Shown here: piece by piece, positions 3,587 through 11,972 of the stretch
How the letters are laid out: every line of letters starts with the position of its first letter
How positions within the stretch are numbered: the first letter of the stretch is position 1
From: Myxococcus dinghuensis
Lineage (GTDB): Bacteria; Myxococcota; Myxococcia; Myxococcales; Myxococcaceae
DNA: 64,000 nt
Direction of reading: 5' to 3'
Assembly (NCBI RefSeq): GCF_024198235.1
Contig: NZ_JAKCFB010000017.1
Location: 124,001 to 188,000 of the forward strand
Translations under genes and position numbers: made by a program
The notes under the pieces: model-generated
What the model was told of the DNA's origin: nothing
Seen by the model: the letters and a program-made list of their open reading frames with translations, nothing else
The model's database searches: none

Positions 3587-5146
3587 TCAGAGTCCCGCGA
3601 CCTTCGACGAGAGCGACAGCGTGTAGACCAGCGTCAGCTCCTGTTGCGAGCGAGGCGGCGCGGTCATCTCGAACCGGACGATGCCATCGGGGCTCACCTT
3701 CGTCGGGGCCGGCTTCGTGGCGTCCTTCAGCAAATGGACGCTCACCGAGTCGACCTCGGAGACGGGGATGCGCTCCTCCAGCGCGACGGGCGTCGCGGTG
3801 GCGCCCATGTTGGAGAGGAACAGCCGCACGTGGTGCGTCTTCACCTTGCGACCGGTGAGCCGGCTCGACTCCTCCTCGACCTGGGACTGGCGGGCCACGC
3901 GCAGCGAGTCCTCGCTACCGAAGCCCAGGCGCACGGACTCACCCCGGCCGGTGAAGCGCAGGTTCGAGCGGCCGACGTGGCCGCTGCCACGCACCAGGTC
4001 CACCGGGCCCGCGAGCAGCACCGCCGGCCCCGTGTTCTCGAAGCGGGCCACGCGATGCACCAGCGGCGACTGCTCGGGCGCCACCACCAGCTCCGAGGTC
4101 GCCGGCGCGGTGAAGTGGAACAGCGGGACGCGGTGGGCCTCGCCATCCGGGGGCACGCTCGCCCGGTGCGGGGCCGCCAGCGTCAGCGGCTCGCCGCCGT
4201 CATCCATGCCGGGCAGCTCCTGGTCGCGCCGGGCCGTGCCGCCGTCCCCCGTGGTCTGGATGACCTCCTCGCGGACGGCGATCTCCACCACCTGCTTCTC
4301 CCGCTCCGTCCGCTCGCGCAGCCACAGCCAGTCCTCCTCCAGGCGCGGCGGTGAGGCGCCGAGCGTGGGGCGCGCGGTGGAGAAGGCCAGCTCCACGTCC
4401 TTCCAATCCTCCTCGGTGCGCTGCCAGACGACGGCCTCGCACTCCAGGCGCACCGCGAGGGTGTTGTGGGCGCCTGGCTCGAGCGTCGCGCGGTAGGCCG
4501 GGCGCCACGCGGCGCAGGGCACCAGGTAGCTGATGGACAACAGCGCCGTTCCACCGGCCGGGTGACCCACCTCCAGCTCGGCGAACGTGTCGAGCGTCGG
4601 CGGGGCGTCCTCCGTCCTCGCCTGCGCGCTCCGGGCCTGAGCGAGCTGCTGTTGCACCCGCCCCACCTCGTGCAGCGCCTTGCGCTCGTGGGTGGCCGTC
4701 GCCTCCTGCTCCTTGCGGACGGTGTCGAGCTGGTGCTTCCAGGTGTCGATGGAGGCCTTGCCGGCGCCGGCCTGCTCGGAGATGGCGCGGTAGACGTCCG
4801 CGTGGGCCGTGTCGAGCAGCGTCTTGCGCGCGCGCAGCCGCTCCAGGTCCGCCAGCGCCTTGCGCTCCTGCTGCTCCAGCTCCGCCACGCGGCGCCCGAG
4901 CTCCGTGCGGTGCTCTCGCAGGGCCTCGGGGCGATGGGGCTTGCGCGTGCGTCGGATGCGCGCCTGCGACACCGTCCCTCCGGCCAGCTTCGCCTGGAGC
5001 GAGCGATCCACCGCGAGCGGGGACATGCCGGAGAGGACGAGCCGCTGCGCGCCCGGCACGAGCGGCACCTCGCCGCGGCGCTCCACCAGCGCGCGGTCCT
5101 CGAGGAGGGTGACCTTGACCACCGGGAGGGTGAGGGGCGTGTTCAT
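3587..5146 (-). CDS. MuiA family protein (DUF4139/DUF4140), copy A
   Basis: This 519-residue protein belongs to the mucoidy-inhibitor MuiA family. It has an N-terminal DUF4140-like beta region (VTLLEDRALVERRGEVPL), a central helical coiled coil rich in Glu/Arg/Leu (residues about 75-190), and a C-terminal DUF4139 beta domain starting at the SYLVPCAAWRPAYRA motif. The biochemical role of the family is unknown; the name comes from a gene affecting mucoid colony appearance. The ATG at 5146 is preceded by GGAGGA and overlaps the stop codon of copy B by one base (TGATG), so translation of the two is coupled. I see no signal peptide or membrane segment. Being the shorter copy without an insert, it is close to the usual family length. 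Confidence 0.88.
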   Translation of the reverse strand: MNTPLTLPVVKVTLLEDRALVERRGEVPLVPGAQRLVLSGMSPLAVDRSLQAKLAGGTVSQARIRRTRKPHRPEALREHRTELGRRVAELEQQERKALADLERLRARKTLLDTAHADVYRAISEQAGAGKASIDTWKHQLDTVRKEQEATATHERKALHEVGRVQQQLAQARSAQARTEDAPPTLDTFAELEVGHPAGGTALLSISYLVPCAAWRPAYRATLEPGAHNTLAVRLECEAVVWQRTEEDWKDVELAFSTARPTLGASPPRLEEDWLWLRERTEREKQVVEIAVREEVIQTTGDGGTARRDQELPGMDDGGEPLTLAAPHRASVPPDGEAHRVPLFHFTAPATSELVVAPEQSPLVHRVARFENTGPAVLLAGPVDLVRGSGHVGRSNLRFTGRGESVRLGFGSEDSLRVARQSQVEEESSRLTGRKVKTHHVRLFLSNMGATATPVALEERIPVSEVDSVSVHLLKDATKPAPTKVSPDGIVRFEMTAPPRSQQELTLVYTLSLSSKVAGL

Positions 5147-7413
5147 CAGGTCCTCCGGTTGCCGCCGTTGAGCATCTTGTTGGCGGGAATCTTCACGGTC
5201 CATGTCGCCTTCAGCGTCTGCGCCTCACCCGGCTGGAGCACCACGCGCCACGCACGCTCGCCCTCGACGGGTTGTTCTCCCGGCAGGGGGATGCGCTTCT
5301 GCCAGGCGGGGGCGATCTCCGCCTCCTCCACCTTGATGTCCTTCTCCGTGCCCGTGGGGACTGCGGGGATGCGCTCGCAGACCTCCACCAGGACGCGGTT
5401 GTGGAGCCGGTTGGCCAGCTCCACGGAGACCTGGTGCGTGAGCATCGTCGAGCCGAAGAGGCCACCGGCGACCTCGTCGAAGCGCGTGTTGCGCGCGACC
5501 TTGATGGACTCCTCGACGCCCAAGCCCAGGCGCTGCGTGGCGCCGGGCGGCAGGGTGGGCAACGGCGACGTCATGAGGAACTCGTCGCCGAGCGTGACGT
5601 CCACGGGGCCGGCCAGGAGCGGGTAGGGCGTCCGGTTCTCCAGCCGCACCGTGCGGAACGCGCGGGACTCGACGGACGGGACGCAGACGTACTCGGCGGA
5701 GATGCCCATGGGGACGACGAGGACCGGCAGCGTGTGCCACGCCGCGTCCGAGGGCACGTCGGCGCGGGACTCCAGGTCGAAGCGCGCGTCGAAGTGCATC
5801 GCGGACTCGCGCGGCGCGATGCCCCACGCGGGCAGCGGCGCGTTCCAGATGGTGGAGACCTCCTGCTCGCACACCGCGATGAGCGTCAGGATGTCGACCT
5901 GGACGTGGACGGCCTGCAACGCGAGCAGCTCGCGGGTGACGTGCGAGGGCCGGGGTCGCAGGCGTCCGCGGTGCGCCTTGTCCTGCGCGGGGGCCAGCTC
6001 CAGCCGGTCGTAGTCGAGCAGCGAGTCCGTGGGCTCCAGGCTCGACGGCACCTGGGGGGATTCGTCCCGGTTCGCCGCCCCGCCACCACCGACGGCCAGC
6101 CCGTCGTCCATGTCCGCCTCGGGGGCCTCCAGCTCCATCTCCATCGGCGCCGAGGCTCGCGGGGCGGCGGAGGGCCTGATCCCGCCGAAGCTGGCGGCGC
6201 TCGCGGCGCGCAGCTTCGAGCGCTTGGGCGACGGCATCGAGGCGCTGGGCACGTCCTCGGATGGTGGGGTGCTCGGCATTCCTCCTGGTGCCTGGGGCTT
6301 GCGCGGCATGGCGCCCGCGGACGAAGGGGGCCGGCCCCGGCGCGCGAGGTCCATCGAGCGGCCCTCCTCGAGGGCTTCCTCCTCGGGAGCCTCGTACGCC
6401 GGCGCGGGAGGAGGCGGCGCGAACATGACCGGCTCGTTGCGCGGGGCGGCGGGCATGGGCGGCGGCGGAGGCGGTGGGGGCGGGGCCCGCAGCGTGTCGA
6501 AGCCCGCGAACAGCTCATCCAGGCCGGGGGGCGGCTCGCGCCAGCCGGAGCGGGGAGGCGGCGGTTGGCGGCGGCCGATGCGCAGGGCCTTCAGCTCCGG
6601 GACCTCCGCCTTCCGGTCGAGCGTGGCCGTGGAGACGGCGACCTTCACGTTCGTCCAGTCCTCGCCCGTGCGCTGGAGCACGGAGGCGCGCATGCGCAGC
6701 GTGCCTTCCTCCAGCGTGCGTGGCAGCCGCAGGTCGTACGTCGGCACCCAGCGCGCGCCGGGCACCGCGTACTCCAGCGCGATGAGGGCGGGCTGCTCGC
6801 GAGGCCACGGGTTGCCGGACAGCCGCAGCACGGCCGCGCGATAGACGCGCGCGCGCTCGCCACGCACGGAGGAGGACGCCTCGTGGATGCGCTGGCGGCG
6901 CACGCGGATGTCGTCCTCGGTGTCGCGCTTGCGCCGCTCCAGCTCCAGCTTCCGTGCATGCAGGGCGGCGAGCTCCGAGTCCACGAAGGACGCCAGCGCG
7001 AGCATCGCCTCCACCGGGGCCTCGTGAGGGGCCGGCGCGTCCGGCTTCTGCGGCAGGAAGGTCGGCTCCAGGGCGCCGAGCGTGCCCAGCTCCTGCTCCA
7101 GGGCCTCCAGCCGGGCCGTCACGTCCAACAGGCGCTCGAGCGCTTCCTCCAGGGCGCGGTGCTCCTGGGGCACGTCGACCTCGGGTGGGAGCTGCACGTC
7201 GAACGTCGCGCGCAGGTCCCGGACCTGGAGGCCGGGAGGTCCCTGGTGCACGAAGGCGCGCATCGTGCCGGGGCGCAGGGACAGCGGCAGGCCGTTGATT
7301 CGAATCTCGTTGGGGACGCGGTCCTCCTCGAGTCTGAGCGTGGCCAGGCGCGTGCAAAGCGCGCCCTCCGCGTAGACGGTGACGGCGTCCAACATGGATG
7401 GCACGACGAGCAT
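5146..7413 (-). CDS. MuiA family protein (DUF4139/DUF4140), copy B with Pro-rich insert
   Basis: This 755-residue paralogue of the downstream gene shares its plan: an N-terminal DUF4140-like region (VTVYAEGALCTR), a helical coiled coil (about residues 85-190), and a DUF4139 domain opening with LEYAVPGARWVPTYDLR. It differs by a low-complexity insert of about 200 residues (roughly 290-490) containing a nine-proline run, then Ala/Pro/Met/Glu-rich sequence ending in a short Gly run. The insert splits the DUF4139 half. The open frame reaches a TTG at 7443, but the ATG at 7413 has a GAGGGGG ribosome site at good distance and is preferred. It is the first gene of a two-gene operon with a TGATG junction to copy A, suggesting that the two proteins act together, perhaps as a heteromer. 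Function is unknown. Confidence 0.85.
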   Translation of the reverse strand: MLVVPSMLDAVTVYAEGALCTRLATLRLEEDRVPNEIRINGLPLSLRPGTMRAFVHQGPPGLQVRDLRATFDVQLPPEVDVPQEHRALEEALERLLDVTARLEALEQELGTLGALEPTFLPQKPDAPAPHEAPVEAMLALASFVDSELAALHARKLELERRKRDTEDDIRVRRQRIHEASSSVRGERARVYRAAVLRLSGNPWPREQPALIALEYAVPGARWVPTYDLRLPRTLEEGTLRMRASVLQRTGEDWTNVKVAVSTATLDRKAEVPELKALRIGRRQPPPPRSGWREPPPGLDELFAGFDTLRAPPPPPPPPPMPAAPRNEPVMFAPPPPAPAYEAPEEEALEEGRSMDLARRGRPPSSAGAMPRKPQAPGGMPSTPPSEDVPSASMPSPKRSKLRAASAASFGGIRPSAAPRASAPMEMELEAPEADMDDGLAVGGGGAANRDESPQVPSSLEPTDSLLDYDRLELAPAQDKAHRGRLRPRPSHVTRELLALQAVHVQVDILTLIAVCEQEVSTIWNAPLPAWGIAPRESAMHFDARFDLESRADVPSDAAWHTLPVLVVPMGISAEYVCVPSVESRAFRTVRLENRTPYPLLAGPVDVTLGDEFLMTSPLPTLPPGATQRLGLGVEESIKVARNTRFDEVAGGLFGSTMLTHQVSVELANRLHNRVLVEVCERIPAVPTGTEKDIKVEEAEIAPAWQKRIPLPGEQPVEGERAWRVVLQPGEAQTLKATWTVKIPANKMLNGGNRRT

Positions 7414-7509
7414 GCGCCCCCTCGGTGCGGGAAAGAGCGGCAACGCTAGTCGAGATCGCCCCCCGGAATCATGCCCCCACCTCGGTCGAGGGCGGAGGCT
7501 CGCCCCGAC

Positions 7510-7980
7510 TCAGGGCCACATCCGGATGTGGCCCCCCGGTAGCCGGAGCGCCACCAGGATTTGCCGCGCCGCGCCTTCGCGCCGGACCAGGAGCATGGGC
7601 CCCCGTCGCGCGCGGACCTCGCCCTCCTGGGCGGGGCGCCAGCGGATGTCGAAGGCGAGCCGGGCCCGGGCGACGTCGGGGGGCAGCGGTCCCTCGGCGC
7701 GCAGGGACTCCACGAACGCGCGTCCGTCCACCAGCGGCCGGGGCTCCACCGTCATGGGATGGAGGCGGGCCCAGGCATCGAACCGCGTGGCGAACGTCGC
7801 GCCCAGGCCGGTCACCAGGGAGGGCCAGGTCTTCGCGACCAGCCGTCGTCGCTTGTCGAGCAGCGCGCGTGCGGCGGCCTCCACCCGTCCCGGGTCGAAG
7901 CCCGCGGGGACCGGCGCTCCCGTGCCGAGTGCCCGGACCAGGTCGGCCTGCGCCTGGGCGAGGTGCGCTCGCGCGCTCAT
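7510..7980 (-). CDS. Small partner of the DUF692 enzyme (SCO6045-like)
   Basis: This 156-residue protein has an N-terminal helical segment (AHLAQAQADLVRALGTG) followed by a conserved-looking core with the pattern PAGFD...A.ALL.KRRR..AKTWPSL...LG..F..RF.AWAR. That pattern resembles the SCO6045-like proteins I recall beside DUF692 genes in Streptomyces. The C-terminal half (residues about 75-156) is Arg/Pro-rich and predicted beta. There is no signal peptide and no cysteine. Its ATG at 7980 overlaps the stop of the DUF692 gene in an ATGA junction, so the two are translationally coupled. By analogy with the DUF2063-type partners of other DUF692 enzymes, it may recognise or deliver the substrate protein; that is inference. 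It is the last gene of the cassette. Confidence 0.72.
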   Translation of the reverse strand: MSARAHLAQAQADLVRALGTGAPVPAGFDPGRVEAAARALLDKRRRLVAKTWPSLVTGLGATFATRFDAWARLHPMTVEPRPLVDGRAFVESLRAEGPLPPDVARARLAFDIRWRPAQEGEVRARRGPMLLVRREGAARQILVALRLPGGHIRMWP

Positions 7981-8831
7981 GGGTGGGCCTCGTGGGTGGC
8001 CGTGACGCGGGGACCGGCGCCGCGCGCGACGGCGTCACGCAGGGAGGCCAGCTCGGCGAGCAGGACGTCCTCGGGTGGGAAGTGGTCGTCACGCTCGAGC
8101 ATCACCGGCACCGGGCCCAGCCTCGCGGCGAGCGCCCCGAGCAGTCGCAGGGGGCCCTCGGGCACCGGGTGCGCGTGGGTGTCGTGATACAGCCCGTCAT
8201 GGCGCACTCCGCCCGCGACGTGGACGTAGGCCAGCCGCTCCCTCGGGACGATGTCGAGCACCGCGTCCGCGTCCGTCCCGTGGTTGAGCACGTGGGAGTA
8301 GAGGTTGGCCACGTCGAGCAGCAGCGACGCGCGCGTCCGGGTGAGCACGGCCCGCAGCAGCTCCGCCTCCGGGAAGGCGGGGTCGGGCCACTCGAACAGG
8401 GAGGCCACGTTCTCCAGCGCGAGCGGCACGGGCAGCGCCGCCTGCGCCAGGTGGATGTTCTCCTCCAGGACCTCCAGCATGAGGTCCGACCGGGGCACGG
8501 GCAGCAGGTGCCCCGACTCGATGCCCGCCGCGCGGACGAAGGCCAGGTGCTCGCTGATGCACACCGCGCCCAGCCGCTCGGCCAGCCGCGCGAGCCACTC
8601 CAGGCGCTTGGGCGAGGGGGGCTCCGCCGAACCCAACCCCAGCGAGACGGCGTGCAGGACGATGGGGACACCCCGCTCGCGCAGTCGGAGCAGGGGCGTG
8701 GGCACGGGGCCGGCGGGAGGCAGGTGCTCGGCGAGCACCTCGATGAAGCCCAGGTCCGGCATCCGGTCGATGACGTGCGCCAGCTCGCGTCGCCACCCGA
8801 TGCCGACGCCCTGGAGCCCGGGGATGCTCAC
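7977..8831 (-). CDS. DUF692 / MNIO-family multinuclear iron oxidase
   Basis: This is a TIM-barrel enzyme of the DUF692 family (MNIO: MbnB, TglH and relatives), which bind two or three iron ions and oxidatively remodel cysteine residues of ribosomal peptides. With the GTG at 8831 as start (284 aa), the expected ligand motifs are present: His60 in LHAVSLGLGS, SEHL at 93-96, Glu140-Asn141, DVANLYSHVLNHG at 173-185, His204 in YVHVAGG, DTHAHPV at 217-223, and Glu246 in LERDD. The GTG has GGAGGG upstream and overlaps the TGA of the membrane-protein gene (GTGA), which fixes the start. No separate precursor peptide gene is visible. The Cys/Gly-rich tail of the coupled upstream membrane protein is the most likely substrate, by inference. 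Confidence 0.9.
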   Translation of the reverse strand: MSIPGLQGVGIGWRRELAHVIDRMPDLGFIEVLAEHLPPAGPVPTPLLRLRERGVPIVLHAVSLGLGSAEPPSPKRLEWLARLAERLGAVCISEHLAFVRAAGIESGHLLPVPRSDLMLEVLEENIHLAQAALPVPLALENVASLFEWPDPAFPEAELLRAVLTRTRASLLLDVANLYSHVLNHGTDADAVLDIVPRERLAYVHVAGGVRHDGLYHDTHAHPVPEGPLRLLGALAARLGPVPVMLERDDHFPPEDVLLAELASLRDAVARGAGPRVTATHEAHP

Positions 8832-9715
8832 GAGCACCCTCCGCAGCCGCCGCCACCACAACCGCCACCGCCACCGCCGCAGCTTCCGCCTCCATCACCC
8901 GAGGAACCCGACGAGTCCGAGGCGGAGTGGACGTTGAGGTGTCGGTTCAGCAGTTGGAAGTCGGCGACCGCGACCGTGCCGAGCCCGTAGAGGCCGACGG
9001 ACACCGCCAGGTCGTCGAGGCCGAGCGCGCCGAGGCTGCTCGCGCTCTGCGCGGCCAGCTTCACGGGCTCCTGCTGGTCGCGGAACCGCGCGAGGACCGC
9101 GTCGCCGTGGAGGGTCCGCCACGAAGGCCGTACCCGGATGAAGAGGACGATGGCGCAGCCGACCAGCAGCAGCCCCAGGAAGCCCACGGGCTTGTCTCGT
9201 GAGAGGCCGTGAACCATCCGCGCCACCAGCGCCATCATCAGGATGACGAGCGGCAGCGCGGGGATCCACCGGGAGAAGAACGCCTGGTTCTCGTCGAGGA
9301 GCCAGCCTCGCTCCACCAGGGGCTGCTTGAGCGATTCGATGGACGCGTCGGCCGCGCGCTCCAGCTTCGCGGTCTCCATCACTCCCTGGCTGACGGCGTG
9401 ATACACGGCGCGCTCGATGCGTGGGGCGCCGGCCGGGAGGCCCGCGGCGGTCTCGAGGCGCCCCGGATCGAGGCGGATGGCGCCCTGGTGGAGCAACCGC
9501 GCCAGCGCCGTCTCGATGATGGAGGACGGCCCCGCGAGCGTCGCCACCAGGTACGGGTCCGGTCGCCGGGGAAGGTCCTCGTCGCGGTGGGTGTCATGGC
9601 GCGTGCCCCGGCGGAGCAGCCGGTTCAGCACGACGCCCAGGATGATGCAGCCGATGAAGGCGGCGACTGCGTACAGCAGGAACTCCGGGCCTGAGATGCG
9701 GTGCGTCGGATTCAT
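8828..9715 (-). CDS. TIGR04222-like membrane protein with Cys/Gly-rich C-terminal tail
   Basis: This 295-residue protein starts at the ATG at 9715, which has a very strong AAAGGAGGT ribosome site. It has an N-terminal membrane helix (about residues 10-32), a cytoplasmic region opening with the DPYLVATLAG motif typical of the TIGR04222 group and predicted to be winged-helix-like, two further membrane helices (about 170-192 and 196-214), and a tail (residues about 268-295) made almost only of Gly, Ser and four Cys, ending GGCGGCS-like at the very C-terminus. The gene is fused by a GTGA overlap to the DUF692 enzyme. Such tails are a hallmark of these proteins in DUF692 neighbourhoods. I infer that the tail cysteines are the enzyme's substrate, giving a membrane-anchored modified peptide, perhaps for metal binding or redox use. 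Confidence 0.82.
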   Translation of the reverse strand: MNPTHRISGPEFLLYAVAAFIGCIILGVVLNRLLRRGTRHDTHRDEDLPRRPDPYLVATLAGPSSIIETALARLLHQGAIRLDPGRLETAAGLPAGAPRIERAVYHAVSQGVMETAKLERAADASIESLKQPLVERGWLLDENQAFFSRWIPALPLVILMMALVARMVHGLSRDKPVGFLGLLLVGCAIVLFIRVRPSWRTLHGDAVLARFRDQQEPVKLAAQSASSLGALGLDDLAVSVGLYGLGTVAVADFQLLNRHLNVHSASDSSGSSGDGGGSCGGGGGGCGGGGCGGCS

Positions 9716-9830
9716 CGTCGTGACCTCCTTTCGATTCGATTCAGTCCAGCCGGTTCGCTCCCTTCTGGGGAATTCGTCAGAAGAGGTTACAGCGGCGGAT
9801 TGTGTCATCCGTGTGACGACCTGGGGTCTT

Positions 9831-11972
<2,142 letters not shown>

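Follow-up and report, generated by a model that had tools for sequence, protein, structure and literature searches.

A myxobacterial cassette of a Cys-tailed TIGR04222 membrane protein, an MNIO enzyme and a partner protein: homology to DUF2207 proteins and a possible cytoplasmic site of Cys modification

We analysed a stretch of 64,000 nucleotides from Myxococcus dinghuensis (contig NZ_JAKCFB010000017.1, positions 124,001 to 188,000; hereafter the window), in which three consecutive genes encode a membrane protein of the TIGR04222 family with a Cys-bearing Gly/Ser tail, an enzyme of the MNIO (DUF692) family and a short partner protein (Table 1). The ATG of the membrane protein at 9715 lies just 3' of the Shine-Dalgarno sequence AAAGGAGGT. 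In the overlap GTGA, its TGA stop (8828-8830) meets the GTG with which the MNIO gene starts, and in the overlap ATGA the TGA stop of the latter (7977-7979) meets the ATG of the partner gene at 7980. These features, together with the minus-strand orientation of all three genes, agree with a preliminary description of the locus, made from the sequence alone, which had seen one cassette behind a single strong ribosome site and had proposed the tail as a substrate of the MNIO. There is no space for an adjoining precursor gene longer than about 38 codons, since the gaps flanking the cassette measure only about 115 bp on one side, up to the stop of a kinase gene, and 66 bp on the other, up to the nearest listed open frame. 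The statement of that description that no free precursor peptide is seen holds in this sense beside the cassette, and for more distant precursors it stands without a systematic search.

Table 1. Features of the three-gene cassette. Positions are those of the window; pLDDT, predicted local distance difference test.
Feature	Position	Strand	Basis
TIGR04222 membrane protein, 295 aa	8828..9715	-	NCBIfam TIGR04222 134.8 bits, AlphaFold model
MNIO (DUF692/PF05114) enzyme, 284 aa, GTG start	7977..8831	-	PF05114 245.6 bits
Partner protein, 156 aa, PME-type-2-like	7510..7980	-	AlphaFold mean pLDDT 89, fusion to MNIO in other loci
Gly/Ser tail of TIGR04222 protein, residues 262-295, proposed modification site	8831..8932	-	Translation
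Shine-Dalgarno AAAGGAGGT of cassette	9723..9731	-	Sequence

The membrane protein belongs to TIGR04222, the model matching residues 17-248 far above the NCBIfam cut-off of 43 bits (134.8 bits). Its parts follow one another as a first transmembrane segment (TM1), a soluble winged-helix-like domain, a hairpin of two further transmembrane segments (TM2/TM3), a C-terminal segment and the Gly/Ser/Cys tail. AlphaFold modelled residues 1-255 at a mean pLDDT of 90, with the tail outside the model. The translation contains the four tail cysteines that had been described (residues 279, 286, 291 and 294) and ends in CGGCS, and the remaining two Cys of the protein sit in predicted membrane segments. All 38 intact myxobacterial Cys tails carry CGGC inside their last 20 residues, and tail length and the other Cys are variable. 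A fold search with TIGR04222 gave helical-bundle noise, from which an entry for yeast Vps74 (Z 6.5 over 136 residues) did not stand out, and a sequence search of the PDB with the TIGR04222 alignment returned four chains at E 0.14-1.2 that carry no clear meaning. On a different contig, the genome has a second TIGR04222 gene (L041) with an in-frame TGA, likely a pseudogene, with no MNIO hits in 10.5 kb.

The assignment of the second gene to the DUF692/MNIO family was borne out by PF05114 (245.6 bits; Pfam cut-off 25) and by the motifs SEHL, GHLLP, LENV, LDVANL, YVHVAGG, DTHAH and LERDD, among which lie the predicted iron ligands. The motif positions are mostly invariant or nearly so among 17 aligned sequences, and a multi-iron cofactor and an oxidative activity are predicted from the family. 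Sequence matches of the enzyme include 3bww, TglH and MbnB, the similarity to the TglH and MbnB enzymes being low, and the best NCBIfam models, BufB (187.1 bits; cut-off 310) and HvfB (144.8 bits; cut-off 360), stay below their equivalog cut-offs. In FonB, Asp249 has been proposed as the catalytic base and Arg15/Arg16 have been described (PMC13097082). These residues appear equivalent to Asp248 and Arg14/Arg15 of the window enzyme, a match drawn indirectly, by way of an alignment with 3bww instead of FonB; the window residues are invariant or nearly invariant among the 17 sequences. At the position after the FonB Arg pair, Phe or Asp is reported depending on the MNIO group (PMC13097082), and 17/17 of our aligned enzymes have Asp there. 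The distinct open frames that gave an MNIO hit number 102, some of them partial; SEH was read in 89 and SDH in 1, the motif as written being unseen in 12. 3bww and MbnB read SDH where most of these frames read SEH, which makes SEH in place of SDH a possible sequence marker of this MNIO clade. Elsewhere in the same genome, a minus-strand locus (L074) holds an 86-residue lipoprotein-like frame (6388-6648) with GSCG, AGCG and HGCG motifs, a separate MNIO gene (5422-6375) and, where a partner would be expected, another gene (4700-5566); judged from its sequence, this set resembles captophorin clusters.

The enzyme might act on a non-Cys residue of the tail, such as a C-terminal Asp, the Cys being needed only for enzyme action. 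ApyH provides a precedent, since it converts a C-terminal Asp and requires a Cys that stays unmodified (PMC10635010), and 29 of the 38 intact myxobacterial Cys tails (loci L021-L079) do end in Asp. However, the window protein ends in Ser. Its enzyme shares 67-76% identity with most of the 17 aligned enzymes, which mostly adjoin Asp-ending tails. In other phyla a C-terminal Asp is rare (2 of the tails counted), and the ApyH model of NCBIfam scores the window enzyme at only 100.5 bits against a cut-off of 400. As a general MNIO target, the C-terminal Asp was rejected, since only the myxobacterial homologues often have it and the window protein lacks it, and we regard an ApyH-like action on the tail as very improbable.

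The partner protein matches no NCBIfam model and no Pfam family above cut-off, and it is thus without the DUF2063 signature. The label "SCO6045-like" first given to it is left unconfirmed by these searches. SCO6045 itself is reported to be 3-fold up under peroxide in Streptomyces coelicolor, alongside cysteine-synthesis genes (PMC4991794), which would be a lead to the function of the cassette should the partner correspond to it. Support for the partner role proposed at the outset comes from the gene order, a natural fusion with the MNIO and a modest resemblance in fold. The AlphaFold model (mean pLDDT 89) consists of N-terminal helices and a C-terminal beta part, and its best five rows in VIA-align are TglI (Z 7.7 over 145 residues, root-mean-square deviation 3.9), TglI again (7.5), NGO1945/3dee (6.6) and MbnC (6.1, 5.1), with unrelated rows starting just under them at Z 4.8. 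Foldseek returned nothing at E 0.001 for the model (best TglI, E 0.14), and a PDB sequence search with the partner alignment returned no chains. Like the PME-type 2 proteins of PMC12452194, the partner is without DUF2063 and its gene follows the MNIO gene, here overlapping the MNIO stop; from gene position and fusion, together with the modest fold resemblance, it likely belongs to that group.

The gene set recurs well beyond the window. Within the order, 37 of 145 genomes gave TIGR04222 matches (30 pass the family cut-off); for the phylum the figures are 42 of 195 genomes (32 pass it), and of 119 genomes sampled from one Streptomyces-containing order 90 had TIGR04222 genes. Chance association is excluded, since an MNIO hit is present in 27 and a partner hit in 27 of 36 related myxobacterial loci drawn from the order and phylum matches. 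The three-gene set occurs across Myxococcota and Actinomycetota (Streptosporangiales and others), and four TIGR04222 genes with an adjacent MNIO were found in Planctomycetota, one of them with a partner hit and thus as a full set. Altogether, 92 of 102 TIGR04222 genes with an adjacent MNIO have a partner hit; five of the ten misses are actinomycete rows, three of these with less than 800 bases of flank. In 20 Streptomycetales loci, MNIO and partner are joined in a single open frame. At one myxobacterial locus (L039), four tandem TIGR04222 genes, one of them tail-less, share the MNIO gene and the partner gene that follow them, each present once. In two genomes (G045, G048), the set is divided between two loci, with a membrane protein and an MNIO but no partner hit at one place, and a membrane protein and a partner but no MNIO hit elsewhere (loci L034/L050 and L035/L057); such an arrangement suggests that the proteins may act in trans. 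In a published survey, 40% of those Cys-containing proteins that lack a signal peptide and are encoded before MNIO genes belong to TIGR04222 (PMC12452194).

A survey of the co-occurrence of Cys tails with DUF692, which the preliminary description had suggested as a check, came out in part for and in part against its proposal. An MNIO lies within 3 kb of 99 of the 124 TIGR04222 genes whose tails hold at least two Cys, distances being read from longer stretches with approximate gene lengths. It also lies within 3 kb of 18 of the 29 tail-less or Cys-poor genes (at most one Cys). When rows with too-short flanks are excluded, the counts become 99/106 and 18/23, respectively, and of the 25 Cys-tailed genes without an MNIO at this distance, 18 have undecidably short flanks. 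A first contrast (96/113 against 6/23, Fisher p 5e-8), which left out 29 of 178 open frames and kept 13 DUF2207 proteins separate, was rejected as largely a product of 1.5-kb Streptomycetales flanks; because short flanks shaped that count, the contrast is not used as evidence here, and its loss somewhat lowers the odds of the main reading given below and of its more tentative extension.

These data bear on the possibility that the tail, as a Cys-bearing DUF2207-like tail, simply offers thiols or binds metal, and that the MNIO targets something else or another part of the TIGR04222 protein. The 18 tail-less genes beside an MNIO point in this direction and away from the tail as the substrate, and several further observations do the same. 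Eight Streptomycetales loci (L233-L237, L244-L246) have a fused MNIO-partner frame with only a tail-less TIGR04222 gene nearby, and seven Cys-tailed genes lack an MNIO in the 3 kb to each side. Among the genomes of these seven genes, G038, which is 98% complete, gave no PF05114 match, whereas in G043, G044, G073 and G074 MNIO genes are found elsewhere. Also counting against the tail as the substrate, the tree gave only three supported independent pairs for tail Cys and adjacent MNIO, about two of them agreeing. Nine of the 18 tail-less cases share their cluster with a Cys-tailed copy (L039, L089, L093, L168, L169, L172, L175, L176, L190). A separate Cys-rich precursor as the real substrate had also been considered at the outset; a scan for Cys-rich frames at the eight Streptomycetales loci gave no convincing candidate. 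The lack of another Cys-rich candidate there, the gene overlaps and recurrence of the three-gene set, and the fact that known MNIOs mostly target Cys (PMC10635010) speak against a plain thiol tail, which we consider rather unlikely. As first proposed, the protein families, the operon logic and a Cys tail serving as a putative MNIO substrate are plausible, but tail-less relatives also occur near MNIOs.

On which side of the membrane the tail lies, a point on which the preliminary description is silent, can be approached through DUF2207 proteins such as E. coli YciQ. A profile of the myxobacterial TIGR04222 proteins aligned with eight DUF2207 proteins over 196 columns (hhalign 96.4%, E 1.3e-9), from the end of TM1 to past TM3. 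Judged from this alignment, the TIGR04222 domain and the C-terminal half of DUF2207 proteins are homologues. Both DUF2207 domains were confirmed by Pfam in four scanned proteins, YciQ among them. The window protein itself is not a DUF2207 member, as it has no PF09972 and scores 15.1 bits with PF20990 against a cut-off of 33. The DUF2207 relatives were drawn from Actinomycetota, Planctomycetota and E. coli, since PF20990 gave a single match, below cut-off, in 60 genomes of the order. For DUF2207, an extracellular N-terminus and an intracellular Gly/Ser-rich C-terminus have been predicted (PMC10457818). In accordance with such a topology, 145 of 154 TIGR04222 open frames (six ties, three opposite) and 12/12 DUF2207 proteins have Lys plus Arg at greater density on the side predicted to be inside. 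These counts are per residue, since the lengths compared are unequal (30 against about 20 residues), and an equal-length version was made besides. Start codons were set by rule, and the pseudogene L041 may be among the myxobacterial open frames counted.

Antoine et al. (2025, PMC12452194) placed the tail in the periplasm from predicted topology, the methods section of their report naming no topology program. The tail would then be an MNIO substrate resembling a membrane-anchored bufferin that chelates excess copper. Some of our own results favour the outside as well or weaken the case for the inside. In myxobacteria, the charge comparison at equal length gives a weak signal (20 greater against 17 equal and 4 less), and the TM2/TM3 loop carries 2.88 Lys plus Arg per 12 columns, while that of Actinomycetota has nearly none (0.40); this positive charge weakens the case for a cytoplasmic tail in the window protein itself. 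A fourth hydrophobic stretch before the tail would, if membrane-spanning, put the tail outside; it is borderline in myxobacteria (median 1.66; window protein 1.27) and strong in one protein from a proteobacterial metagenome-assembled genome (2.17). However, elsewhere the same stretch is weak, with a median of 1.10 in Actinomycetota, 1.24 in Planctomycetota and 0.36 in DUF2207 proteins, and the charge density of the large majority of open frames and the DUF2207 homology favour the inside. Based on these two lines of sequence evidence, we consider it likely that the tail is cytoplasmic, contrary to the published view, and a periplasmic tail modified by the MNIO unlikely.

Taken together, we see about even chances that the cassette encodes a membrane protein with a DUF2207-like domain, whose cytoplasmic tail is oxidatively modified at Cys by the MNIO and its partner to give a thiooxazole-like buffer. 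The TIGR04222 protein would reside in the inner membrane and match what is left of a DUF2207-type protein once its outer domain is removed, namely the C-terminal half. TM1 would insert with its N-terminus out, leaving the winged-helix-like domain and the tail in the cytoplasm, with TM2/TM3 as a hairpin. The flexible tail would thereby stay within reach of the cytosolic MNIO, whose action on the tail cysteines the PME-type 2 partner would aid, and no leader peptide, export or cleavage would be needed, because the tail would remain accessible to the cytosolic enzyme. If the MNIOs closest to it among those characterised are a guide, Cys oxidation probably yields 5-thiooxazole or similar, a group for which an absorbance near 305 nm has served as a sign (PMC13097082). 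It would form a copper(I) or redox buffer tethered at the inner face of the membrane, a role suggested by the nearest MNIO systems (PMC13097082). More tentatively, a DUF2207-type Gly/Ser tail may have gained Cys, come under the action of an MNIO and its partner, and become a permanently tethered cytoplasmic metal or redox buffer of the thiooxazole type that is never exported or cleaved; the MNIO would then serve no natural-product pathway. If modification of the tails takes place in the cytoplasm, MNIO chemistry would extend beyond secreted peptides to a resident membrane protein, and copper or redox buffering at the inner face would be a role new to this chemistry.

Upstream of the cassette lie genes for a Ser/Thr kinase and an extracytoplasmic function (ECF) sigma factor, with matches to both in 5 of 36 compared loci, the nearest relative (L072) included. 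Downstream, two DUF4139/DUF4140 genes (3587-7443, minus strand) follow, which are found near the cassette in many loci of the genus; DUF4139 gene matches occur in 11 of the 36 compared loci, besides L072. Any functional tie of the cassette to the kinase, the sigma factor or the DUF4139 genes would be putative. A scan of 7300-10000 for promoters and terminators gave none and is uninformative for a GC-rich myxobacterium, and no plasmid record matched the membrane domain.

The cassette shares with TglHI and MbnBC the combination of an MNIO and a partner, the predicted partner fold modestly resembling TglI and MbnC. The sequence similarity of its enzyme to theirs is low, and those systems have other substrates and chemistry. 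With the bufferin and captophorin systems (BufABC, HvfABC, FonABC), it has in common an MNIO with a partner and, putatively, their action on Cys, BufB and HvfB being the best models for its enzyme. Unlike in these systems, no small secreted precursor adjoins, the partner lacks DUF2063 and the enzyme falls below both equivalog cut-offs. DUF2207 proteins, including YciQ, have a homologous C-terminal half with the transmembrane hairpin, and Gly/Ser-rich tails were seen in their actinobacterial and planctomycetal members. In contrast to the window protein, they carry an N-terminal PF09972, their tails hold at most one Cys (13/13) and their flanks of about 1.1-1.5 kb contain no MNIO. Within the open-licence full-text literature, the TIGR04222 family is named in two reports (PMC5183585, 2016; PMC12452194). 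The substrate idea is not new, since it was published in 2025 (PMC12452194), where Cys tails of TIGR04222 proteins are already put forward as substrates of MNIOs with PME-type 2 partners; no experimental test of this proposal was found in the open-licence full-text literature, most subscription journals being outside that scope. As in those clusters, the cassette of the window combines a membrane protein with a Ser/Gly/Cys tail, an MNIO and a short partner without DUF2063. Whereas the published clusters are mostly from Actinomycetota and their tail is described as periplasmic, the one studied here is myxobacterial, with DUF2207 homology and evidence for a cytoplasmic tail. Our work adds to them the recurrence across phyla together with MNIO-partner fusions, the homology to DUF2207, the case for a cytoplasmic tail and the near-terminal CGGC of the myxobacterial proteins.

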